Of a stretch of 64,000 nucleotides of DNA, positions 14,208 through 32,231 are shown one piece after another. Source of the stretch: Vaginimicrobium propionicum. Its GTDB lineage: Bacteria; Actinomycetota; Actinomycetes; Propionibacteriales; Propionibacteriaceae. The notes below the pieces were generated by a model. The model made no database searches, was not told the origin of the DNA, and saw nothing but the letters and a program-made list of their open reading frames with translations. Location of the stretch: positions 868,001 to 932,000 of the forward strand of contig NZ_LT706985.1 in assembly GCF_900155645.1 (NCBI RefSeq), written 5' to 3'. Both the position numbers and the translations under genes were made by a program. Position 1 is the stretch's first letter; every line of letters begins with the position of its first letter.

Positions 14208-15929
14208 ATGGCCAAGAATTTTGAGTTCGTCACTCGCGGCAACAAAGAGGTTGTGCGGGTAGCTATCCGTGGACGAGACGTTTTAAGTGACCCGATGATT
14301 AACTTCGGCACGTCATTTACTCAAGAGCAGCGTCGCCAGCTCGGACTCGTTGGCCTGCTGCCCAGGGGCGTAATGACTATGGACGAACAGATTAGACGGG
14401 TCCATAAACAATTCCAGTCTGAACCATCAGATTTAGCTAAATACAATTACTTAAATGCAATGCGGGATCGCAATGAGTTCTTGTTTTATCGGTTGATTAG
14501 CGAAAACATCGAAGAGATGATGCCGATTGTTTATACGCCCACAATCGGAGCTGCTATTCAGGAATACTCTCACTGGTTCCACAAGCCGCGCGGCATATAT
14601 TTAAGCATTGATGACCAGGACTTAATGGAAGAGTCATTACTGGCCGATAGAGCAGCTCCTGAGGATATTGATCTTATAGTGGTCACTGATTCCGAGGGCA
14701 TCCTAGGCATCGGTGATCAAGGGGTCGGCGGAGTAGCTATCACCGTTGGAAAATTGTCTCTCTACACTGCTGGCGGTGGCATCCACCCCCACCGTGCGCT
14801 ACCAGTCGTACTAGACACTGGTACGGATAATCTCGATTTATTAAACGACCCAGCCTATATTGGGGTGCCGCACCCAAGAGTGCGTGGCAAGGCTTATGAC
14901 GAATTCATCGCTAAATTCGTTGATTGCGTTCAGCGGCTATTCCCCAACGCTATGTTGCACTGGGAAGATTTCGCAGCGGCCAATGCCACCCGCATTTTGG
15001 AGCGCTACCGTAACGAAATTTGCACATTCAACGATGATATTCAAGGTACAGCCGCCGTAGTCGTGGCCGCCGTTCTATCTGCCATGCGCTCAAGTAAAGT
15101 CAGGCTACAAGACCAGCGGATTGTGGTTCACGGGGCAGGTAGCGCCGGTATCGGTATCGTTAATCAACTTCTTGAAGTGATGGTTGAACGCCTTGGCATG
15201 GATCCTAAGGTTGCCAGATCACGCTTTTGGGGTTTGTCATCTAAAGGTTTATTAGTTGATGATGGCCAGCTTCGCGACTTCCAGAAACCATTCGCACGCC
15301 GACGTGAAGAACTGGTTGATTGGCGGGTAGAAAATCCCAAGCACATAACTTTGGCTGAGGTTGTCGACAATGTTCATCCGACCATAATGATTGGCACTTC
15401 CGCACAAGCTGGAGCCTTCACTCGTCCAATCATCGAGACTATGGCTGCACATGTGGAGCGTCCGATAATAATGCCACTGTCGAACCCTACTCCACGTGCT
15501 GAAGCTACCCCGCAACAACTTCTCGAATGGACTAACGGTAAAGCGTTAATAGCTACCGGCTCCCCGTTCGAGCCAGTACAATTTGCTGGCAATAACTACC
15601 ACATTGCCCAAGCTAATAATGCTCTGGTATTCCCAGGAATCGGGCTTGGGGTGATTGTTTGCCGCGCGTCTCGGATCACTCCTCGAATGATTGCCGCAGC
15701 TTCCGCCGCCGTAGCTGACGCGGTCACTGACCGAAAGATGGGTGCATCTTTGTTGCCAGCCATTCACCAATTGCGTTCCATTTCCGCCCGAGTAGCTATA
15801 GCAGTCATAAAAGCAGCTCAAGCTGAGGGCTTGGATAGGCAACCAGTAGATAGCCCTATTGAGTCGGTTTATAGAGCCATGTGGAAGCCTATTTATCCCG
15901 AAATTGAGGTCGTGGATTCACTAGATTAA
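14208..15929 (+). CDS. NAD-dependent malic enzyme
   Basis: It oxidatively decarboxylates malate to pyruvate. The 573-residue length and motifs fit the large (SfcA/MaeA) class: RNEFLFYRLISENIEEMMPIVYTPTIG, RGIYLS, VTDSEGILGIGDQGVGG, FNDDIQGTAAV, VVHGAGSAGIGI and PLSNPTPRAEATP. Malolactic enzymes are close relatives and cannot be excluded by eye. The SBF-like transporter gene follows 22 bases later, but whether it moves a substrate for this enzyme is unknown. Confidence 0.92.
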   Translation: MAKNFEFVTRGNKEVVRVAIRGRDVLSDPMINFGTSFTQEQRRQLGLVGLLPRGVMTMDEQIRRVHKQFQSEPSDLAKYNYLNAMRDRNEFLFYRLISENIEEMMPIVYTPTIGAAIQEYSHWFHKPRGIYLSIDDQDLMEESLLADRAAPEDIDLIVVTDSEGILGIGDQGVGGVAITVGKLSLYTAGGGIHPHRALPVVLDTGTDNLDLLNDPAYIGVPHPRVRGKAYDEFIAKFVDCVQRLFPNAMLHWEDFAAANATRILERYRNEICTFNDDIQGTAAVVVAAVLSAMRSSKVRLQDQRIVVHGAGSAGIGIVNQLLEVMVERLGMDPKVARSRFWGLSSKGLLVDDGQLRDFQKPFARRREELVDWRVENPKHITLAEVVDNVHPTIMIGTSAQAGAFTRPIIETMAAHVERPIIMPLSNPTPRAEATPQQLLEWTNGKALIATGSPFEPVQFAGNNYHIAQANNALVFPGIGLGVIVCRASRITPRMIAAASAAVADAVTDRKMGASLLPAIHQLRSISARVAIAVIKAAQAEGLDRQPVDSPIESVYRAMWKPIYPEIEVVDSLD

Positions 15930-22364: not shown

Positions 22365-22757
22365 CTAAATCATGAACCCAATGGCACGCAATTGCTCGCG
22401 GCCATCCTCGCTAACTCGCTCTAGCGTCCATGGTGGCATCCATACCCAGTTAACCGTCGTGGAACTTGCTAAACCTGATAATGCTTGACGGCACGATTCT
22501 TCCAAATAATCAGTTAGTGGGCAGGCTGGGCTAGTCAAAGTCATGTCTATAGTGACATTTAGTTCATCGTCAATATCTACCCCGTAGACCAGACCAAGAT
22601 CGACAATATTGACCATCAACTCGGGGTCTACAACGTCTCTCAACGCCTCGAACAACACCAGCTCTTTTTCTGCCAGGCTAGCTTCGGCCCAAGTTTTACC
22701 AGGATGGTCGTCAAAGTCGTCACGCACCAGATCAGACGGTCTAACCTCTTCGTTCAC
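22365..22757 (-). CDS. sufT: SUF-associated DUF59/MIP18-type assembly factor (SufT-like)
   Basis: The 130-residue protein contains the MIP18/PaaD-like domain (ALRDVVDPELMVNIVDLGLVYGVDI, TLTSPACPLTDYLEESC). It is the last gene of the SUF operon, overlapping sufU by 4 bases, and by analogy with SufT helps mature or deliver Fe-S clusters. The cysteine in SPACPLTD is the conserved one. Confidence 0.88.
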   Translation of the reverse strand: MNEEVRPSDLVRDDFDDHPGKTWAEASLAEKELVLFEALRDVVDPELMVNIVDLGLVYGVDIDDELNVTIDMTLTSPACPLTDYLEESCRQALSGLASSTTVNWVWMPPWTLERVSEDGREQLRAIGFMI

Positions 22758-23200
22758 TTTTCCTCCTCAGCTAGGGCACGAGCGGCTGCATCACGAAGCG
22801 CAGACCAACCAAGCATGGCGCACTTAACTCGGCCAGGAAATTGAGCAACCCCTTGAAAAGCGATGCCATCTTCTAAAACGTCCTCGTCGCCAGCTATCTG
22901 TCCTTGGCCTTCCATCATTTCTTTGAAAACATCGTAGAGTTTCATGGCTTCGGTAACGGTTTTTCCAATAACCAGGTCGCTCATTATCGAGGTGGACGCC
23001 TGCGAAATCGAGCACCCCTCAGCCTCGTAGCTCACATCGGCGATGGTTTCACCGTCCAAGTTGACTCTAAGTTTCAGTTCGTCACCGCAAGTTGGATTCA
23101 CGTGCTCAACTTCAGCACCAAAAGGTTCCCGCAACCCACTGTGATGTTTTTCGTAATAGTGATCCAAGATGATGTCTTGATAAAGCTGCTCTACGCTCAT
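22754..23200 (-). CDS. sufU: SufU-type Fe-S assembly sulfur acceptor
   Basis: The 148-residue IscU-like protein takes persulfide sulfur from SufS. The ligands can be seen: Cys and Asp in TCGDE, Cys in AEGCSISQAS, and Cys in RVKCAMLGW. The 20-residue insert relative to IscU that marks SufU is present. It overlaps sufS by 4 bases (ATGA) and lies before sufT. Confidence 0.94.
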   Translation of the reverse strand: MSVEQLYQDIILDHYYEKHHSGLREPFGAEVEHVNPTCGDELKLRVNLDGETIADVSYEAEGCSISQASTSIMSDLVIGKTVTEAMKLYDVFKEMMEGQGQIAGDEDVLEDGIAFQGVAQFPGRVKCAMLGWSALRDAAARALAEEEK

Positions 23201-24447
23201 CGTCTCCTCCTTTTGCAGAAGAAATCCCTAGTCCAAGCGAGTGCGTCGATGAAAATATCGATCTCTTGCTTGGTGGTGTACAAATAAGCCGAGGCTCGGG
23301 TACTTGATTGGACACCGTAGCGACGATGCAGGGGCTCGGCACAGTGATGCCCGCCACGTACTGCCACTCCCCGCGAATCTAGCAGTTGCATAACATCGTG
23401 AGGGTGGACACCATCTAAAGTAAATGCAACGGCTGAACCACGGTCAGTATTTGGACAGGTGGAACCCAACACCTGCACGCCGTCAATACTCGCTAGCCCG
23501 TCTAATAGGTAGCTAGTGATTTGACGTTCATGCTTAGCTACTGCATCCATGCCAACACTGTTCAGGTAATCGATGGCTGCCCCTAGCCCGACGGCTTGCG
23601 CGATCGGCGGGGTGCCAGCCTCAAATCTGGCTGGAGGTTGAGCAAAAGTTGATTTTTCCATGGCCACTTTAGCGATCATTTCGCCCCCACCTAGGAAGGG
23701 TGGCAGCTCGGCCAGCAGATCGTAACGTCCCCAAAGCACGCCAATACCCGTAGGGGCAAGCATTTTGTGGCCAGTGAATGCCAACATATCTGCCCCTAGA
23801 CCAGCGGCATCGCACGGACGCTGCGGCACCCCTTGGGAACCATCCACAACCACAACTGCCCCAACTTGGTGAGCTTTGGCCGCAATCTTGGCTATTGGGT
23901 TGACGGTGCCAAGGACATTTGATACCCACGTTAGAGCAACAACTTTGGTATTTTCATTGATTAGGTTTTCGGCCTCAGCTTTTTCTAAATCAAGATGGCC
24001 GTCATCATCCACGTCGAACCAGCGCAGTTTTGCGCCAACCCGTTGGGTGGCTAACTGCCAGCTCACCAGATTCGAGTGGTGTTCCATAACGGAGATAACC
24101 ACCTCATCGTCCTGGCTAAGCCCCTGGCATAGACAATTGGCTGCCAGATTTAACGCTTCGGAGGCGTTCTTGGTGAAAATGACTTCACTGGCATCGCCAG
24201 CATGAATGAAATCCGCTACTTTTTTACGAGCACCCTCATAAGCCATAGTGGCCTCAGCACCAAGCTGGTGCATAGCGCGTGCAACATTCGCATTGTGTCT
24301 AGCGTAGTGGCTGGTCACAGCCTCAATAACCGAAAGCGGTTTTTGTGAGGTATTGGCGGAATCCAAGTAGACCAGCGGGTGCCCATTGATCTGACGGCTA
24401 AGGATTGGGAAATCAGCCCGGATGCGTTCAACATCCAACTCACTCAC
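23197..24447 (-). CDS. sufS: Cysteine desulfurase SufS
   Basis: This PLP enzyme removes sulfur from cysteine for cluster assembly. The internal aldimine lysine is in FTGHKMLAPTGIGVLWG; the persulfide cysteine is in RGGHHCAEPLHRR near residue 370. The N-terminus VERIRADFPILSR and the 416-residue length are typical of group II desulfurases. It overlaps sufC by 4 bases. Confidence 0.96.
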   Translation of the reverse strand: MSELDVERIRADFPILSRQINGHPLVYLDSANTSQKPLSVIEAVTSHYARHNANVARAMHQLGAEATMAYEGARKKVADFIHAGDASEVIFTKNASEALNLAANCLCQGLSQDDEVVISVMEHHSNLVSWQLATQRVGAKLRWFDVDDDGHLDLEKAEAENLINENTKVVALTWVSNVLGTVNPIAKIAAKAHQVGAVVVVDGSQGVPQRPCDAAGLGADMLAFTGHKMLAPTGIGVLWGRYDLLAELPPFLGGGEMIAKVAMEKSTFAQPPARFEAGTPPIAQAVGLGAAIDYLNSVGMDAVAKHERQITSYLLDGLASIDGVQVLGSTCPNTDRGSAVAFTLDGVHPHDVMQLLDSRGVAVRGGHHCAEPLHRRYGVQSSTRASAYLYTTKQEIDIFIDALAWTRDFFCKRRRR

Positions 24448-25205
24448 GACCTGGCCACCTTAAGGTATTTGTCATAGCCGTCACGCTCCAGCTCGTCAGC
24501 TAATTCCTTGCCACCTTCTTTAATAACGTGCCCGTCCACGAAAACATGAACATGCGTAGGGGTTACATAGTTGAGGATGCGCGTGTAGTGAGTAATCAAT
24601 ATCAGCCCGCGATCCCCTTGAGCCGCAAACTTATTGACCCCCTCGGCAACAGTACGAATAGCATCAATGTCAAGGCCGGAGTCAATCTCGTCCAGGACGG
24701 CCACCAGCGGGTTGAGTAATTCCAACTGGACGATTTCACCGCGTTTCTTCTCACCGCCAGAAAACCCTTCATTGATAGAACGGGAAGCGAAATCAGGGTC
24801 TAGGTGCATAGCTTCCAATGAATCTTTAACGATTTTTGGCCAAGTACGAACCTTTGGTGCTGCCCCATCCAAAGCAGTCTTAGCAGTGCGCAGGAAGTTA
24901 GACATCGAAACTCCAGGCACTTCGACGGGGTATTGCATAGCTAGAAATAGGCCGGCTCGAGCTCGCTCGTCAACACTCAGTTCGGTTAACTCAATATCAT
25001 TGAGCCTAACCGAACCCGAGGTGATGTGATATTTGGAATGCCCCGCCAGCGCATAAGCCAAAGTTGATTTACCGGAACCATTTGGCCCCATGATGGCATG
25101 AATCTCGCCGGCATTGATACACAGGTCGACACCGTTGAGAATCTGCTTGGCACCATTTTCGGTCTCAACCTCTGCCACCAAATCTTTAATTTCCAGAATT
25201 GCCAT
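24444..25205 (-). CDS. sufC: Fe-S assembly ATPase SufC
   Basis: It is the ABC-type ATPase of the SufBCD scaffold. Walker A GPNGSGKSTLAYALAGH, signature FSGGEKKRGEIVQL, Walker B AVLDEIDSGLDIDA and LITHYTRIL are all SufC hallmarks. The 253 residues are standard. It lies between the Rieske-like gene (16 bases away) and sufS. Confidence 0.97.
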   Translation of the reverse strand: MAILEIKDLVAEVETENGAKQILNGVDLCINAGEIHAIMGPNGSGKSTLAYALAGHSKYHITSGSVRLNDIELTELSVDERARAGLFLAMQYPVEVPGVSMSNFLRTAKTALDGAAPKVRTWPKIVKDSLEAMHLDPDFASRSINEGFSGGEKKRGEIVQLELLNPLVAVLDEIDSGLDIDAIRTVAEGVNKFAAQGDRGLILITHYTRILNYVTPTHVHVFVDGHVIKEGGKELADELERDGYDKYLKVARS

Positions 25206-25221
25206 TATCGTTGCTCCAATT

Positions 25222-25566
25222 TTATTTCAATGCAGTCGTTTTCGGATTCGAGACGTCAACACTGATCTGTTCACCCTCGATTTTTACCGGATAGACAGGC
25301 ACAGCTTGAATAGCTGGCAGGTTCAAAGCGGTGCCAGTACGCAAGTCGAAACGCGAACCGTGTACCCAACACTCAATGCAGCCATCTTCAACGAGCCCTT
25401 CAGATAGCGAAACGCGAGCGTGTGAACATAAATCACGGATAGCAAAAATCTCACCATCACTTGCAACGATGGCCACTTGAATCTCTTGACCATCGTCGTC
25501 CAACAATGTCACTGGCAGTGGATCCTCACTAAGCTCAGCTAGCGTGGCTGCTGGCCTGAAACTCAT
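25222..25566 (-). CDS. Rieske-type 2Fe-2S ferredoxin of the SUF operon
   Basis: A 114-residue soluble Rieske domain. The cluster ligands are visible as CSH in DLCSHARVSLS and CxxH in CWVHGSRFDLRTG. Non-haem ferredoxins of this kind are a regular part of actinobacterial SUF operons between sufD and sufC; their exact role is not settled. It overlaps sufD by 4 bases. Confidence 0.93.
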   Translation of the reverse strand: MSFRPAATLAELSEDPLPVTLLDDDGQEIQVAIVASDGEIFAIRDLCSHARVSLSEGLVEDGCIECWVHGSRFDLRTGTALNLPAIQAVPVYPVKIEGEQISVDVSNPKTTALK

Positions 25567-26741
25567 AGATCCTCCTGAGCCAAAATTTGTTCTTTAGCCA
25601 GACCCTCAACAGCCATCAGCTCGTGGTTTAGTGCTTCTACAAGCCTTGATTGCACTTGCGGGACGCGGATGCGCCGAATCAAATCTAGGAAGAAACCCTC
25701 AACTATCAACCGACGCGCTTTATCCTCTGGAATACCTCGGCTGCGCAGATAGAACAATTGTTCGTCATCAAAGCGTCCAGTTGAGGAAGAGTGGCCAGCA
25801 CCTTTTATCTCGCCGGTTTCAATTTCCAAATTAGGCACCGAATCAGCTTGGCAACCCTCAGTTAACACCAGGTTGCGATTGGTCTCGTAGGTTTCAATAT
25901 TCTTGGCCGCCGCGCGAATCAGGACGTCACCAATCCAAACAGAATGGGCACCGTTGCCTTGTAGTGCACCACGATAATCGGCGTGCGAATAAGTATTCGC
26001 AGCCGTATGGTCGATAAAGATTCTGTGCTCAACGTGACGGGCGCCATCCACAAAATACAGCCCGAATTGTTCTAGTCGCCCACCCTCGCCAGCGTAGGTA
26101 GCTCGTTCTACCTGACGTATTAGGTCACCACCGATTGAGGCTTGGATTAACCGTACCTGAGCGTCGCGTCCGACTAGGGTCGAGATCTGCCCACCGTGTA
26201 GGCTGCCAGCGTTCCAGTCTTGGAGACTAACAAAATTAACTTGTGCCCCATCACCAACATGCAATTCAACCTTGGACGCCAACTGACCTGCCCCAAGAAA
26301 ACGCATAACGATGGTTGCTTGAGCATTAGCCCCGACTTCAATAATCATGTGAGCATCTAGGCGTTCATGCTGACCTGTTAAGTCGAAAATTAGCGGATCA
26401 GCCAGTACCGTATTTTCGGCCACCGTTACTAAAGTTGCTTGTCTGGATTGCCCAGCAACCCAGGCCACCAAATCAACTGGAGCATCACAGCTAGCCTTAA
26501 TGGCTTCATTTTGGCTAATCAGGCTGATATTGACGCCCGATTGCTCATTAATTTGCCAATCCGTAAAGCACTCGCCAGCAGAAAACAGTGGCTTGAGTGT
26601 TTCAATTGGGCTGAAACGCCAGACCTCTTCCCTACCGTTTGGTTCCTGATGGTCAGCCTTATCCCAAGATGGTTTAGGGTGCAGATGCGACTTTAGCTTC
26701 GGTCGGCTAATCAACCCTTTAGGCAGCGTATTAGTCAACAT
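25563..26741 (-). CDS. sufD: Fe-S assembly scaffold protein SufD
   Basis: It is a beta-helix partner of SufB in the SufBC2D complex. The C-terminal core ILIRAAAKNIETYETNRNLVLTEGCQADSVPNLEIETGEIKGAGHSSSTG is diagnostic, and FYLRSRGIPEDKARRLIVEGF completes it. The 392 residues are typical. An AAAGGAG site precedes the ATG. It is 44 bases downstream of sufB. Confidence 0.95.
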   Translation of the reverse strand: MLTNTLPKGLISRPKLKSHLHPKPSWDKADHQEPNGREEVWRFSPIETLKPLFSAGECFTDWQINEQSGVNISLISQNEAIKASCDAPVDLVAWVAGQSRQATLVTVAENTVLADPLIFDLTGQHERLDAHMIIEVGANAQATIVMRFLGAGQLASKVELHVGDGAQVNFVSLQDWNAGSLHGGQISTLVGRDAQVRLIQASIGGDLIRQVERATYAGEGGRLEQFGLYFVDGARHVEHRIFIDHTAANTYSHADYRGALQGNGAHSVWIGDVLIRAAAKNIETYETNRNLVLTEGCQADSVPNLEIETGEIKGAGHSSSTGRFDDEQLFYLRSRGIPEDKARRLIVEGFFLDLIRRIRVPQVQSRLVEALNHELMAVEGLAKEQILAQEDL

Positions 26742-26785: not shown

Positions 26786-28222
26786 CTATCCGACAGCCCC
26801 TTCCATCTGCAAGGCAATCAGGCGGTTAAGTTCTAGGGCATATTCCATCGGCAACTCGCGGGCAATTGGCTCTACGAAACCGCGCACAATCAACGCACTA
26901 GCTTCGTCTTCACTCAGTCCGCGTTGCATTAGGTAGAACAGTTGATCTTCGCTAATACGCGAGATCGTTGCCTCATGAGCCATAGAGGCATCCTCTTCTT
27001 GAACATCCACGTAGGGATAAGTGTCAGTTCGCGACACATCGTCTACTAATAGCGCATCACATTTGACGCTAGATGCCGCATGCAAAGCACCCGGCTCTAC
27101 CCGCACTAGGCCACGATAGGAGGAACGTCCACCCGAACGGGAAATTGATTTCGAGACGATATTCGACGAAGTGTGCGGGGCACAGTGAACCATTTTCGCG
27201 CCCGTATCTTGATGCTGACCTTCACCAGCAAAAGCAACTGACAAGGCTTCACCTTTTGCATATGGGCCAAGCAGCCAACAGGCTGGGTATTTCATATTCA
27301 GTTTTGACCCAATATTGCCGTCCACCCATTCCATTTGGCCACCTTCTTCAACCGTGGCTCGCTGAGTAACTAAATTAAGCACGTTATTAGACCAATTCTG
27401 GACGGTGGTGTAGCGCACCCTGGCGTTCTTTTTGACGATAATTTCGACGATTGCGGCGTGCAGTGAATCTGATTTATAGATCGGCGCCGTACAACCTTCA
27501 ACATAGTGAACGTATGAACCTTCATCAGCAATGATTAGGGTGCGCTCGAATTGGCCAAGATTTTCGGTATTCATGCGGAAATATGCCTGCAATGGGATCT
27601 GCACGTGAACGCCTTTAGGCACATAGATGAATGACCCACCAGACCATACCGCCGTATTCAGAGCAGCGAACTTATTGTCTCCAGCCGGCACTACGGTGCC
27701 GAAATACTCCTGGAATATCTCCTCGTGTTCACGCAAAGCCGTATCAGTGTCTAAGAAAATAACGCCCTGTTTAGCTAGCTCGTCGTTGATTTTGTTGTAG
27801 ACCACTTCGGACTCGTATTGGGCAGCGATACCGGCTACCAGACGGGCTTTTTCTGCCTCTGGAATCCCCAAGCGGTCGTAAGTATTTTTAATATCTGACG
27901 GCAATTCTTCCCAAGTTTGGGCTTGACGATCTACTGAACGGACAAAGTATTTGATGGAGTCGAAATCTATCTCACTTAAGTCGGCACCCCAGGTAGGCAG
28001 CGGCTTCTTATCGAATAGTTTTAGCCCTTTTAGGCGACGCTTTAGCATCCACTCTGGCTCTTGCTTGATCGCAGAAATATATCGGACGACGCGCTCGGAT
28101 AATCCGCGTTCGGCGGCTGCTCCAGCCAAATCCGTATCATGCCACCCGTACTGATATCCGCTAGAAAACTCCGCAATGGTTTCTGCTTGGGCGCGCAGCT
28201 TTTCCTCAACTGTCTGAGCCAT
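26786..28222 (-). CDS. sufB: Fe-S assembly scaffold protein SufB
   Basis: It is the site of cluster assembly in SufBC2D. It has [28 protein letters not shown], the long [19 protein letters not shown] core and the C-terminal [20 protein letters not shown] and [13 protein letters not shown]. The length is 478 from the ATG at 28222. That ATG overlaps the sufR stop (TGATG), so it is preferred to the TTG one codon earlier. SufR and SufB are probably translationally coupled. Confidence 0.97.
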
Positions 28223-28965
28223 CAATTACCTTCCGAATATCTTGATTTAGCTATCGTGGGAGCAGCTTTAGCGCTTGCACCATGATCGACGATATGCAAT
28301 TGGCAGCGTCGGCCACCCTCAGCGATGGTATCTACTCGCTCAACTTGACTGCCAATCAGCTGGGCTAGAAGTTTAGTTTCAGCTTCGCAAAGCTCGGGAA
28401 AATCGCTAGCCACAGATACGACCGGGCAATGGTATTGATAGACGTCACCTTGGTCAGCGTCACTGCGCCAGCTAGCTCGGTATCCGTCCTTATTTAAGGC
28501 TTGGGCTAAAGCTTGCCAAGGTTTCAACTCCGGCGATTCAGCCCGCAATCTGCGATAGCTGGCCGCCACCGAGTCGAGTCTCTTCTTAGCTATCCCCTGC
28601 AATCCTTTAGCCCCAGTCAACGCAATCAGCTCTGCTATGGCGCTTTTTGCTAACTCGTCCGTAGCTTGTTCAAAGCATCGCCTACCTGCCAACGTCAACT
28701 GATAACGCTGAGGGGGTCGTCCTCGACGAAGATTTTGATTATCTATTCTCGCTAATTCGATGCTGCCATCCGCAGCTAACGCCTGGATGTGGCGCCTAAC
28801 GCCGGCGCTAGTTATCCCTAGCCTATTAGCTAACTCAGGAGCGCTCAATGGACCATCTAAGAGCAATAACTCTAAAACTCTTTGCCTGGTTGACCCTTCA
28901 TCAATAGCTTTTAGACGGCTTTCACTCCCGCTACTAAGCGGAGTTTCGGCTGCCAGGATTTTCAC
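28222..28965 (-). CDS. sufR: SufR-family Fe-S-sensing repressor of the suf operon
   Basis: The 247-residue regulator has an N-terminal winged helix ([41 protein letters not shown]) and C-terminal cluster ligands spaced C-x12-C-x27-C (YHCPVV.., ELCEAE, GRRCQL), as in SufR. The family represses suf and itself when a 4Fe-4S cluster is bound. The GTG start lies inside a CAAC-N6-GTTG palindrome, which is evidence for autoregulation. It is the first gene of the operon. Confidence 0.93.
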
Positions 28966-28984
28966 AACTTCAATGTTGCCAAAA
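28959..28984. promoter_or_regulatory. SufR operator at the sufR start codon
   Basis: TTTT, 2 bases, CAAC, 6 bases, GTTG, 2 bases, AAAA form an interrupted perfect palindrome. The CAAC-N6-GTTG core is the motif reported for cyanobacterial SufR. It covers the GTG start (28963-28965) and a possible -10 (CAACAT, with TTTGCT 17 bases up on the minus strand), so bound SufR should block initiation directly. Confidence 0.75.
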
Positions 28985-29025
28985 GATTTTGAAATAGCAA
29001 ATGGAATTAGCGACCACCAAATTCG

Positions 29026-29859
29026 TCAATAAAGGACGGTAGCTAACTCCCCTATCTGCTCAAAGCCGACTTGATCGTACATTTTCCTAGCACGAATATT
29101 GAAATCATTAACATAGAGACTAACTAAGCGAAAACGGGTCAAACACAGATTGACTACTGACGCCATGGCTGGTGCTGACAACCCGTGTGCGCGCAACCGT
29201 GGGTCTAGCCAGACTCCTTGAATCTGGCAGTAGTCACGATATTGACAGCCAATATTTGCGGTGAACCAAACATGACGCCGGTGGGTTGCACCAAAAGCTC
29301 TTTTATTGCTGATCAGAAAACGCACATAAGACTGGTAGCTGCCACCGCCACTTAGCGGGCTGATTCCAACCTCTTCGGTGTACATCTTTACTGAGGATTC
29401 AAAATAGGGGCGCCAATGGCGCATCTTGATATAACCGACGCGCGGGTCTGGTGCGATATTCGCGGGTTTGCCGATGGCCAGTAACGGTTGGTGGGCGCGC
29501 ATATCCCGACATCGCTGCCAAGCAGTCGGCCAGCGTCTAACCAACTCGTTGTACAGCAAGGCAACGTTGTTGGCGCTACCCATAATGGCTGACGAGATTC
29601 TTACCGGGCCGATACAACGAACGAACGCATCTAGCATTTCCTCGTTTATCGCCTGACCGTCACTCGCCACTACCAGGTTTGAACCCAGGCTGAGTACGCC
29701 TATTAACCGCTCATCTTGCCAATATCCATAGGTTGGCCTTGCCGAGTCACCCAATGAAATCCGCGATAACAAGTAGATATTTTCGCTTGGGCGGCGCTCA
29801 AGCATTCGTATGGCTTGCCCCACATGTTCGCGTCGAATCAAGTCCAGCCCATCAACCAT
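29026..29859 (-). CDS. GNAT acetyltransferase with N-terminal DUF4081
   Basis: The 277-residue protein has an N-terminal DUF4081-type half (HVGQAIRMLERRPSENIYLLSRI..) and a C-terminal GNAT domain with VWLDPRLRAHGLSAPAMASVVNLCL (acetyl-CoA loop) and SLYVNDFNIRARKMYDQVGFEQIG. It is found directly after ispG in many Actinobacteria, but its acceptor is unknown. Its ATG overlaps the ispG stop (TGATG). Confidence 0.87.
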   Translation of the reverse strand: MVDGLDLIRREHVGQAIRMLERRPSENIYLLSRISLGDSARPTYGYWQDERLIGVLSLGSNLVVASDGQAINEEMLDAFVRCIGPVRISSAIMGSANNVALLYNELVRRWPTAWQRCRDMRAHQPLLAIGKPANIAPDPRVGYIKMRHWRPYFESSVKMYTEEVGISPLSGGGSYQSYVRFLISNKRAFGATHRRHVWFTANIGCQYRDYCQIQGVWLDPRLRAHGLSAPAMASVVNLCLTRFRLVSLYVNDFNIRARKMYDQVGFEQIGELATVLY

Positions 29860-31001
29860 CAGCTAACCAAGATCTGCGGGGAACCACCAGCTTGCATAGT
29901 GGCAGCAATATCGTTGGCATAGGCAATCAGTGTGGCAACGATTTCATCCTCAGGGACGGTCTTGACGACCTTTCCTTTAACGAAAATCTGTCCTTTGCCG
30001 TTGCCGGAAGCAACTCCTAAGTCCGCCTCGCGAGCTTCGCCCGGACCATTGACGACGCAACCCATGACAGCTACTCGAATGGGGACGCTTAGCTCACCTA
30101 GACCTTCACTGACGCGCTTGGCTAACTCATAGACGTTTACCTGGGCGCGACCGCAACTTGGGCAGGAGACAATCTCGAATTTTCTAGGGCGCAAGTTAAG
30201 CATCTCAAGTATCTTGGCACCAACTTTGACTTCTTCTACGGGCGGCTCGGACAAAGAGACGCGAATAGTGTCGCCGATACCTTCGGCTAGCAACGCGCCA
30301 AAGGCTAATGCAGATTTGATTGTTCCTTGGAAAGCCGGACCGGCCTCCGTCACTCCTAGATGAAGCGGGTAGTCACAGGCTGCGGATAGTTTGCGGTATG
30401 CCTCAACCATTATCACCGGGTCATGATGTTTTACTGAGATGGCGAAGTCGTAGAAACCGACATCTTCAAAAAGTTTGGCTTCTTGAAGAGCTGATTCAAC
30501 GAGCGCACCCGCCGGATCAGTTTCGTAGCGATCCTTCAGCCGGGCATCTAGCGAACCAGCATTGACGCCGATACGCAGCGAAGTTCCGTGGCGGTGCGCT
30601 GAATCAGCGATTTGGGTAATTTGGTCATCAAATTTCTTGATATTGCCAGGGTTGACGCGCACGCCTGCACAACCTGCTTCAATGGCAGCGAAAACATATT
30701 TCGGCTGAAAATGAATGTCGGCGATTACCGGGATGGGCGATTTTGCGGCTATAGCCGGTAGCGCATCCGCATCGTCCTGACTGGGGACGGCAACTCTGAT
30801 GATGTCGCAGCCAGCGGCGGTTAATTCCGCAATTTGACGTAGCGTGGCACCGACATCGCTAGTCAGCGTGGTTGTCATCGATTGGACGGTGATAGGTGCG
30901 TCACCACCAACCCACAGGTTGCCAAGTTTGACTTTGCGGGTTTTACGACGGGTTGCTAACACGCGCGGTTTCGCTGCTGGAATACCTAAATTGATACTCA
31001 T
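29859..31001 (-). CDS. ispG: 4-hydroxy-3-methylbut-2-en-1-yl diphosphate synthase (flavodoxin)
   Basis: It is the penultimate MEP-pathway enzyme, with a 4Fe-4S cluster. The cluster cysteines are in [16 protein letters not shown] and [17 protein letters not shown]. The N-terminal barrel has VQSMTTT and [11 protein letters not shown]. The open frame reaches 31022, but GAGGA lies just before the ATG at 31001, and the homologous N-terminus starts there (380 residues). It follows dxr by 33 bases; the RseP-type protease usually between them is absent. Confidence 0.96.
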
Positions 31002-31034
31002 CAAGTCCTCACTATGCACCAAGATGTGTTAAGT

Positions 31035-32231
31035 CTATGAGCCAACAATTTCGCTAGCCCGCTCACGTGCCCATTCATCGGCCGCCAACACCGCACTTAG
31101 ACTAATGTGTTCATCATCTACATGGCCGTTAACAAGGTGTTCTTCCAGAATTTTTTCAATCGTATCGACGATATCTAGAAATCCAATTTGTCCGGCACAA
31201 AATGCGTCGACGCAAACCTCATTAGCCCCGTTATAAACGGCTGGTGCGCTGCCACCAGCTTTTCCGGCACGCCGAGCTATTTCGACGGCTGGGAAAGTGG
31301 CGTCATCTACCGGCTCAAAAGTCCAGGTGGCTGCTTGACTCCAGTCGAAGGCGCCAGCCGAATTTTCAAGCCGATTAGGCCAGGTCAGCGCTAATCCGAT
31401 GGGAAGACGCATATCGGGCGGTGATGCTTGAAAAATCATCGCACCATCGAAGAATTCCACTCCGGAATGGACAGCAGACTGCGGGTGTACCACCACTTGA
31501 ATCTGCTCATAATCCACCCCATATAGCAAGGCAGCTTCTATTAGCTCTAAGCCTTTATTAACTAAAGTGGCGGAATTAATAGTTATTACTCGTCCCATAT
31601 TCCAGGTTGGGTGGGCCAGCGCGTCTGAGACCGTAACGTTTTTTAATTCCTGACGGCTTTTGCCACGAAACGGGCCACCGGAAGCAGTCAAAATAAGTTT
31701 TTTAACTTCGCAAGCTCGTCCCCCACGCAAACTCTGTGCGAAGGCGGAATGCTCAGAATCAACTGCAATCAATTGACCAGGCTGGGCTGCATTCATTACC
31801 AGTTTTCCACCAATAACTAAGGATTCTTTATTGGCTAAAGCTAACTGACTGCCAGCTTTAAGAGTGGCTAAAGTGGCAAACAATCCAGCAGCACCAGTAA
31901 TGGCGTTGAGCACAATGTCAGTTTTTATGGCAGCTAATTTTTCTGCACTGCCAATCCCTGCCAAAATTTCAGGGATACGCATTTCAGGGCTAGTTAAGCC
32001 GGCAGCGATACCGCACTGTTCATAAGCAACCAAGAAATCGTCAACTTTAGTCTCATCTTCGATTGCCACTTTTAAGGGAGAAAATTCAAAGACCTGCTCG
32101 GCTAGCAGCTTTGGGTTAGAACCTGCAGCAGCTAGCCCATCGACTATGAACTCACCTCGCCGCTTGCCGATAACGTCAAGGGTTTGAGTGCCAATCGATC
32201 CAGTTGAACCTAAAACTACAACGCTCTTCAC
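31035..32231 (-). CDS. dxr: 1-deoxy-D-xylulose 5-phosphate reductoisomerase
   Basis: It is the first committed MEP-pathway step. NADPH site VVLGSTGSIGTQTLDVI, ALANKESLVIGGKLV, VDSEHSAFAQSL, LTASGGPFRG, HPTWNMGRVITINSATLVNKGLELIEA and HPQSAVHSGVEF are all present in 398 residues. The start is GTG. It lies between the zinc-ribbon gene and ispG. Confidence 0.97.
   Translation of the reverse strand: MKSVVVLGSTGSIGTQTLDVIGKRRGEFIVDGLAAAGSNPKLLAEQVFEFSPLKVAIEDETKVDDFLVAYEQCGIAAGLTSPEMRIPEILAGIGSAEKLAAIKTDIVLNAITGAAGLFATLATLKAGSQLALANKESLVIGGKLVMNAAQPGQLIAVDSEHSAFAQSLRGGRACEVKKLILTASGGPFRGKSRQELKNVTVSDALAHPTWNMGRVITINSATLVNKGLELIEAALLYGVDYEQIQVVVHPQSAVHSGVEFFDGAMIFQASPPDMRLPIGLALTWPNRLENSAGAFDWSQAATWTFEPVDDATFPAVEIARRAGKAGGSAPAVYNGANEVCVDAFCAGQIGFLDIVDTIEKILEEHLVNGHVDDEHISLSAVLAADEWARERASEIVGS

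Follow-up and report, generated by a model that had tools for sequence, protein, structure and literature searches.

A predicted SufR operator joined to a proposed promoter and the start codon of sufR in Vaginimicrobium propionicum

Is the palindrome that covers the start codon of sufR, the first gene of a suf cluster, the operator by which SufR controls its own synthesis? The question arises within a 64,000-nucleotide stretch of DNA from Vaginimicrobium propionicum, which as a whole is called the window in the following (GC content 51%). The palindrome occupies positions 28959-28984 (26 bp, TTTTCACAACTTCAATGTTGCCAAAA on the plus strand; 9 of 13 pairs are complementary) and reads TTTTGG-CAAC-ATTGAA-GTTG-TG-AAAA on the coding minus strand. 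Its core CAAC-ATTGAA-GTTG (28965..28978, minus strand) is an inverted repeat CAAC-N6-GTTG with 0 mismatches. The final base of the minus-strand GTTG, G28965, is at the same time the first base of the sufR start codon GTG (28963..28965, minus strand), the sole ATG, GTG or TTG that the sufR frame contains from the upstream stop to the helix-turn-helix region. On re-reading, the coordinates and letters that a preliminary description had given for the palindrome over this GTG were found to be correct.

We consider it probable (roughly 85%) that this box is the SufR operator lying over SufR's own promoter, that sufR is leaderless and that holo-SufR represses sufR-B-D-Rieske-C-S-U-T. In this analysis the reading is based on sequence, gene order, conservation, the position of the symmetry axis, promoter-like spacing and the lack of a Shine-Dalgarno sequence. 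SufR binding, repression, cluster dependence, the transcription start and the extent of the transcript are predicted by orthology.

The suf cluster and its predicted regulator

In line with the eight-gene operon of the preliminary description, sufR heads a cluster of eight co-directional genes in the order sufR-B-D-Rieske-C-S-U-T, all on the minus strand and either overlapping or separated by gaps of at most 44 nt. The sufR gene (28222..28965, 247 aa) is followed by sufB (26786..28222), sufD (25563..26741), a gene for a Rieske-type ferredoxin (25222..25566), sufC (24444..25205), sufS (23197..24447), sufU (22754..23200) and a sufT-like (DUF59) gene (22365..22757). Matches above the respective cut-offs were obtained for sufB (TIGR01980), sufC (TIGR01978), sufS (TIGR01979), sufU (TIGR01994) and sufD (TIGR01981, 225.2 bits at a cut-off of 222). 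The ferredoxin gene exceeded the cut-off of the Pfam Rieske family and the sufT-like gene that of Pfam PF01883, with NCBIfam matches of the former and TIGR02945 and TIGR03406 matches of the latter below cut-off.

A co-directional DUF4081/GNAT gene and ispG lie 60 nt upstream of the cluster (29026-32231), preceded by a gene that we take to be dxr. IspG is itself an Fe-S enzyme. In flanks of up to 2.5 kb, this pair adjoins sufR at the window's own locus only, out of 110 loci. The scan for terminator-like sites reported none in the 60-nt gap, and read-through from the GNAT and ispG genes could blunt SufR control.

The sufR product has winged-helix matches and carries cysteines C180, C193 and C221. 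Against TIGR02702, the cyanobacterial equivalog model, it scored 86.6 bits over residues 25-222, a nearly full-length match. As the curated cut-off is 178.8 bits, the protein is not filed under this family; among 14 control genomes 12 contained a TIGR02702 match and 1 exceeded the cut-off. In the 2.01-Mb genome the protein matched only itself. The best profile matches to solved structures (17 matches, E from 4.8e-6) span the helix-turn-helix part only. The three cysteines are spaced C180-x12-C193-x27-C221 and are invariant in 14 aligned sequences, which is the pattern expected for a predicted [4Fe-4S] cluster. Most relatives have C-x3-C-x12-C-x27-C, with the window's SufR carrying a Tyr at the position of the first Cys. 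Just the last three Cys are found in 5 of 30 loci (L016, L017, L018, L025, L034).

For one sequence taken alone, the palindrome is not beyond chance and is weak evidence. The window contains three CAAC-N6-GTTG cores, where shuffling gave a mean of 1.17 (sd 1.00) and at least three in 6 of 100 shuffles. Across the genome there are 64 cores versus 51 for the reversed control pattern. When the local 100 bp were shuffled 2000 times by mononucleotides, an equally good palindrome arose at some position in 160 cases. Motif counts were therefore rejected as evidence, and the cores in ispG (30908) and at 14240 were taken as chance occurrences. Of the 63 other genomic core sites 48 lie deep within open reading frames (ORFs), 2 are intermediate and 13 are near a 5' end or uncovered, i.e. 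closer than 60 nt to an ORF's 5' end or without a covering ORF of at least 70 aa. We also rejected a wider SufR regulon, since at none of the 7 of these 13 candidate sites inspected by eye was an Fe-S gene recognised. The sequence ACANTNNNGTTGTGA occurs without mismatch at the sufR site only; with up to one mismatch it was found at 16 places in the genome versus 26 for the reversed control, i.e. without enrichment. At one further site (L007 1501-1514, genome position 77382) CAAC-N6-GTTG ends 2 nt before the possible start of a solute-binding-protein-like gene. A divergent GntR-type-regulator-like gene is its neighbour, and the site is perhaps the operator of that regulator. What makes the box at sufR real, in our judgement, is that it lies on the start codon and is conserved among relatives.

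Conservation of the box among relatives

To follow the box across relatives, a same-class set (the class being inferred as Actinomycetia) of 105 genomes from 46 genera was used, all with a SufR match. It comprises 56 of 57 relatives, the window's genome included, plus 49 further same-class genomes from a 396-genome sample of the phylum. Of the 57, G024 had no SufR match and was dropped; in one family (f11) the threshold was not reached by any SufR match in at least 8 same-class genomes. In 101 of the 105 genomes (42 genera) the last base of the box opens an in-frame GTG. Of 80 loci from named records, which overlap with this set (e.g. L080 and L021), 74 conform. The gene directly downstream of sufR is sufB in all 110 loci tested. 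The alignment of sufR upstream regions that the preliminary description had proposed as a check has thus placed the box on the GTG, and the lack of conservation that it had named as counting against an operator was not found. Identical placement in this many genomes and named loci also makes a chance palindrome very improbable, even though the genomic core counts, the 48 of 63 other cores deep in ORFs and the success of local shuffles would all fit chance.

Since the score by which the box was picked includes the start codon, the scoring was repeated without the start-codon letters. To this end the pattern ACA.T...GTT (-11 to -1, counted from the G of the GTG) was used, taking its best match within about 300 nt and sharing out ties. 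The best match coincided with an in-frame start in 94.0 of the 105 genomes versus 1.1 expected from random placement. Twenty shuffled versions of the pattern gave 6.1 on average and at most 48.1 (one of the 20). This test is not independent because the pattern was drawn from inspecting these same loci.

The four non-conforming genomes (G018, G189, G315, G410) are the sole representatives sampled of their genera. In G315 a perfect CAAC-N6-GTTG is kept, the GTG is gone and GGAGG stands ahead of a later ATG. In G018 a decayed box is retained and the start seems to have moved. Among the named loci six do not conform. Four of them, three from Tessaracoccus (L081, L083, L096) and one from a Propionibacteriaceae record (L120), are without the GTTG-GTG junction and have GGAGG ahead of a later start which, judged from these sequences, would be a natural change from a leaderless to a leadered sufR. 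In the other two (L084, L141) the box is retained but out of the sufR frame. Two records labelled Spirochaetaceae (L087) and Bacillus sp. AZ43 (L153) contain an actinobacterial-type sufR with the box; the contigs have probably been given a wrong label or placed in a wrong bin.

Outside the class, 40 of the 70 genomes with matches were examined, including 11 of 13 from family f21, and the start-overlapping arrangement was found in 0 of these 40 loci. In family f21 a CAAC-N6-GTTG with at most one mismatch precedes the protein match by 78-185 nt in 10 of 11 loci, being exact in 4 of them; at L183, L187, L193 and L209 the core follows just 3' of a TACTAT-like sequence. The other 29 loci contained 0 exact cores and 6 with one mismatch, about background by rough arithmetic. 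All seven outside-class loci checked for gene order read sufR-sufB-sufD-Rieske-sufC. In seven loci outside the class (L178, L180, L186, L191, L210, L214, L215) a half-site T[TC]NC[AG]CAAC was seen upstream of sufR, in several cases just 5' of a TAGACT-like -10 and without a clear second half-site.

Symmetry of the box, proposed promoter and mechanism

Which letters of the box are kept was determined from an information profile built on 42 genomes, each from a different genus. The profile climbs at -20 and drops past +7, such that the conserved composite box, a predicted SufR operator with outer TT/AA arms, extends over 28959..28985 (minus strand). A-11, the TT at -2/-1 and the GTG are invariant in 42 of 42 genera, the GTG being present in all 101 conforming genomes. 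Favoured are T-7 (38 genera), G-3 (37), A-9 and G-6 (36 each) and C-10 (28). At +4, +5 and +6 an A is found in 37, 42 and 39 genera, respectively. Upstream an AT block runs from -20 to -16, with T-18 in 39 genera. The CAAC half is the variable part: C-13 occurs in 17 of 42 genera, and an exact CAAC-N6-GTTG is placed at the start codon in 29 of the 101 genomes (11 of 42 genera).

The best symmetry axis of the profile, at -6.5, coincides with the CAAC-N6-GTTG dyad. Here a fraction of 0.469 is complementary, compared to a median of 0.244 and 0.381 for the next centre. Thus the motif named in the preliminary description holds in so far as the core is exact in the window and forms the best dyad, whereas the strict CAAC half is not conserved. 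The TTTT/AAAA arms proposed there are partly conserved: complementarity is found for the outer pairs -18/+6 (36 of 42 genera) and -17/+5 (26), but rarely for -19/+7 (14) and -16/+4 (6), nor is it frequent at -14/+2 (10). For the M. tuberculosis SufR, Anand reportedly gave the motif ACACT-N5-TGTGA in 2021. The box matches this motif in 26 of the 101 genomes, and its relaxed form ACANT-N5-TGTGA in 69, the window's among them. A literature search for the M. tuberculosis motif gave nothing relevant among the matches listed.

The second codon is AAA in 90 of 101 genomes, while further along the same sufR stretches 29 AAA stand against 245 AAG. In a control of 37 coupled gene starts, Lys at codon 2 was encoded by 2 AAA and 1 AAG, and the wobble base was A or T in 9 of 37. 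A-rich second codons can also aid translation. We did not rely on the AAA codon as proof of an operator arm, given the small control (37 starts) and the other explanations for A-rich codons.

The preliminary description had also placed the palindrome close to a promoter, and the overlap with the start codon is indeed accompanied by a plausible one. A proposed -10 element AACATT (28972..28977, minus strand; -12 to -7) lies within the left operator half and contains the conserved A-11 and T-7. A proposed -35 element TTGCTA (28995..29000, minus strand) is separated from it by a 17-nt spacer. The layout in the window is hence TTGCTA-N17-AACATT-N6-G, and a TTG starting between -38 and -34 is present in 34 of 42 genera. 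Symmetry explains T-7 in just 4 of 42 genera, and its conservation is attributed to the -10 element. A generic sigma-70 scan did not report the proposed sufR promoter; AACATT matches the -10 consensus poorly. A Shine-Dalgarno-like 4-mer at -18 to -4 occurs in 1 of 101 genomes. The sufR mRNA is best read as leaderless, with transcription predicted to start on G28965. According to excerpts of PMC8780764, there is a strong preference for AUG among the leaderless genes of S. avermitilis, which makes the constant GTG of sufR notable.

Such a layout could also mean that the box is kept mainly as core promoter and leaderless start (-10, start site and GTG AAA), with SufR binding elsewhere or loosely. 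Promoter and start codon would account for the strongest columns, including A-11, T-7, GTG and AAA, and the looseness of the CAAC half points the same way. However, neither a -10 element nor a start codon needs the TT at -2/-1, the G-3 or the AT block, and the best dyad falls on CAAC-N6-GTTG. The core survives in G315 despite the lost GTG, and in L084 and L141 the box is kept out of frame. In addition, the orthologous site of S. avermitilis is bound by SufR, according to excerpts of PMC11995493. We therefore regard a purely promoter-based origin of the box as unlikely. Still less likely is an operator of another regulator, e.g. an iron or redox repressor of the IdeR/DtxR type or OxyR. Excerpts of the literature mention a predicted DtxR control of sufR in C. 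pseudotuberculosis (PMC6701010) and an OxyR control of suf in C. glutamicum (PMC11995493), but the symmetric core is identical to the one reported for SufR, and sufR with sufB directly downstream accompanies it throughout the loci tested.

Together, the placement on the start, the dyad and the bound S. avermitilis site indicate that the palindrome is very probably the SufR operator, as first proposed. For this operator the following mechanism can be envisaged. RNA polymerase would use the -35 TTGCTA (29000-28995) and the -10 AACATT (28977-28972) and initiate at G28965. The sufR mRNA would have no leader, because the GTG begins at this same proposed transcription start. A [4Fe-4S]-SufR dimer would occupy TT-N3-CAAC-N6-GTTG-N3-AA with its centre between -7 and -6, where it would cover the -10 element and the start site and stop initiation. 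Once clusters become scarce or damaged, apo-SufR would dissociate, such that sufR-B-D-Rieske-C-S-U-T could be transcribed. Repression by holo-SufR and derepression by apo-SufR are described in excerpts of PMC10848736.

Known SufR systems

The preliminary description had taken the core to suggest an operator shared across phyla. This is borne out in that SufR of S. avermitilis also binds CAAC-N6-GTTG, but it is not new: a SufR operator of this form had been published for actinobacteria in 2020 (PMC11995493, citing Cheng 2020; excerpts). What the present sequences appear to add is that a single box, common to most relatives examined, unites promoter, operator and start codon. Among the open-access papers listed, to which the principal SufR papers on Streptomyces and M. 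tuberculosis do not belong, none described operator, -10, start site and GTG as fused throughout a class; Cheng 2020 may well remark on the start codon.

A wider reading, to which we give even chances, is that operator, -10 element, transcription start, start codon and codon 2 form a single class-wide unit of 27 bp. The GTG would be locked since the operator needs a G at +1, and the operator would predate the class, with promoter and start codon having slid across it. Outside the class, as in family f21, its half-sites would have stayed at suf operons, with promoter and start in a different register. The SufR sites of Streptomyces and Corynebacterium and that reported for Mycobacterium, each described on its own, would then be one and the same site. 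If true, a single base would take part in DNA binding and be the start of both transcription and translation. The findings locate a predicted feedback switch of Fe-S cluster assembly in V. propionicum. They also suggest that this switch, its promoter and the opening codons of the repressor gene evolve together as a unit.

The systems compared below are taken from excerpts of the cited papers. In cyanobacteria the [4Fe-4S] form of SufR binds CAAC-N6-GTTG (Shen 2007 as described in PMC8593673 and PMC13421787), as predicted for the window; this side of the likeness is known from papers only. Unlike in the window, the cyanobacterial sufR is divergent from sufBCDS, with two sites of unequal affinity (PMC6034842), and the cysteines of its product follow C-X12-C-X13-C-X14-C (PMC8593673) rather than C-x12-C-x27-C.

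In C. glutamicum a GAAC-N6-GTTG at the main start TSS1 of sufR resembles the site of the window, and the SufR cysteines 175, 188 and 216 have the same spacing as C180, C193 and C221 (PMC11995493). That sufR differs in having two further upstream starts, a promoter inside the gene and a ribosome binding site, so that it is not leaderless. Against the present reading, mutating the -10 within the motif lowered expression and gave no rise (PMC11995493). Further promoters within the suf cluster are described for both C. glutamicum and M. tuberculosis (PMC11995493, PMC6034842), the latter with a possible separate transcription start of sufB (PMC6034842). For the window, the tight repression of all eight genes put forward in the preliminary description is a conjecture.

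The M. tuberculosis SufR, Rv1460, resembles what is predicted for the window, being autorepressed and encoded by a leaderless gene that heads the suf operon (PMC6034842). Its mapped transcription start is at the re-annotated start codon such that there is no 5' UTR, and the protein represses its own promoter. A ChIP-seq site counts against the present reading in that it lies 20 bp upstream of the start codon and not over it, the peaks being coarse. Cysteines 203, 216 and 244 again have the spacing of C180, C193 and C221 (PMC6034842).

The sufRBDCSU cluster of S. avermitilis resembles the window in carrying CAAC-N6-GTTG at sufR (PMC11995493, citing Cheng 2020). The operator is demonstrated there and predicted here, and the six-base spacers differ. 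In both cases the first half of the motif overlaps the -10 element, AACAAT in S. avermitilis and AACATT in the window, and the last G of the motif, which is the transcription start in S. avermitilis, is the first base of the GTG here.
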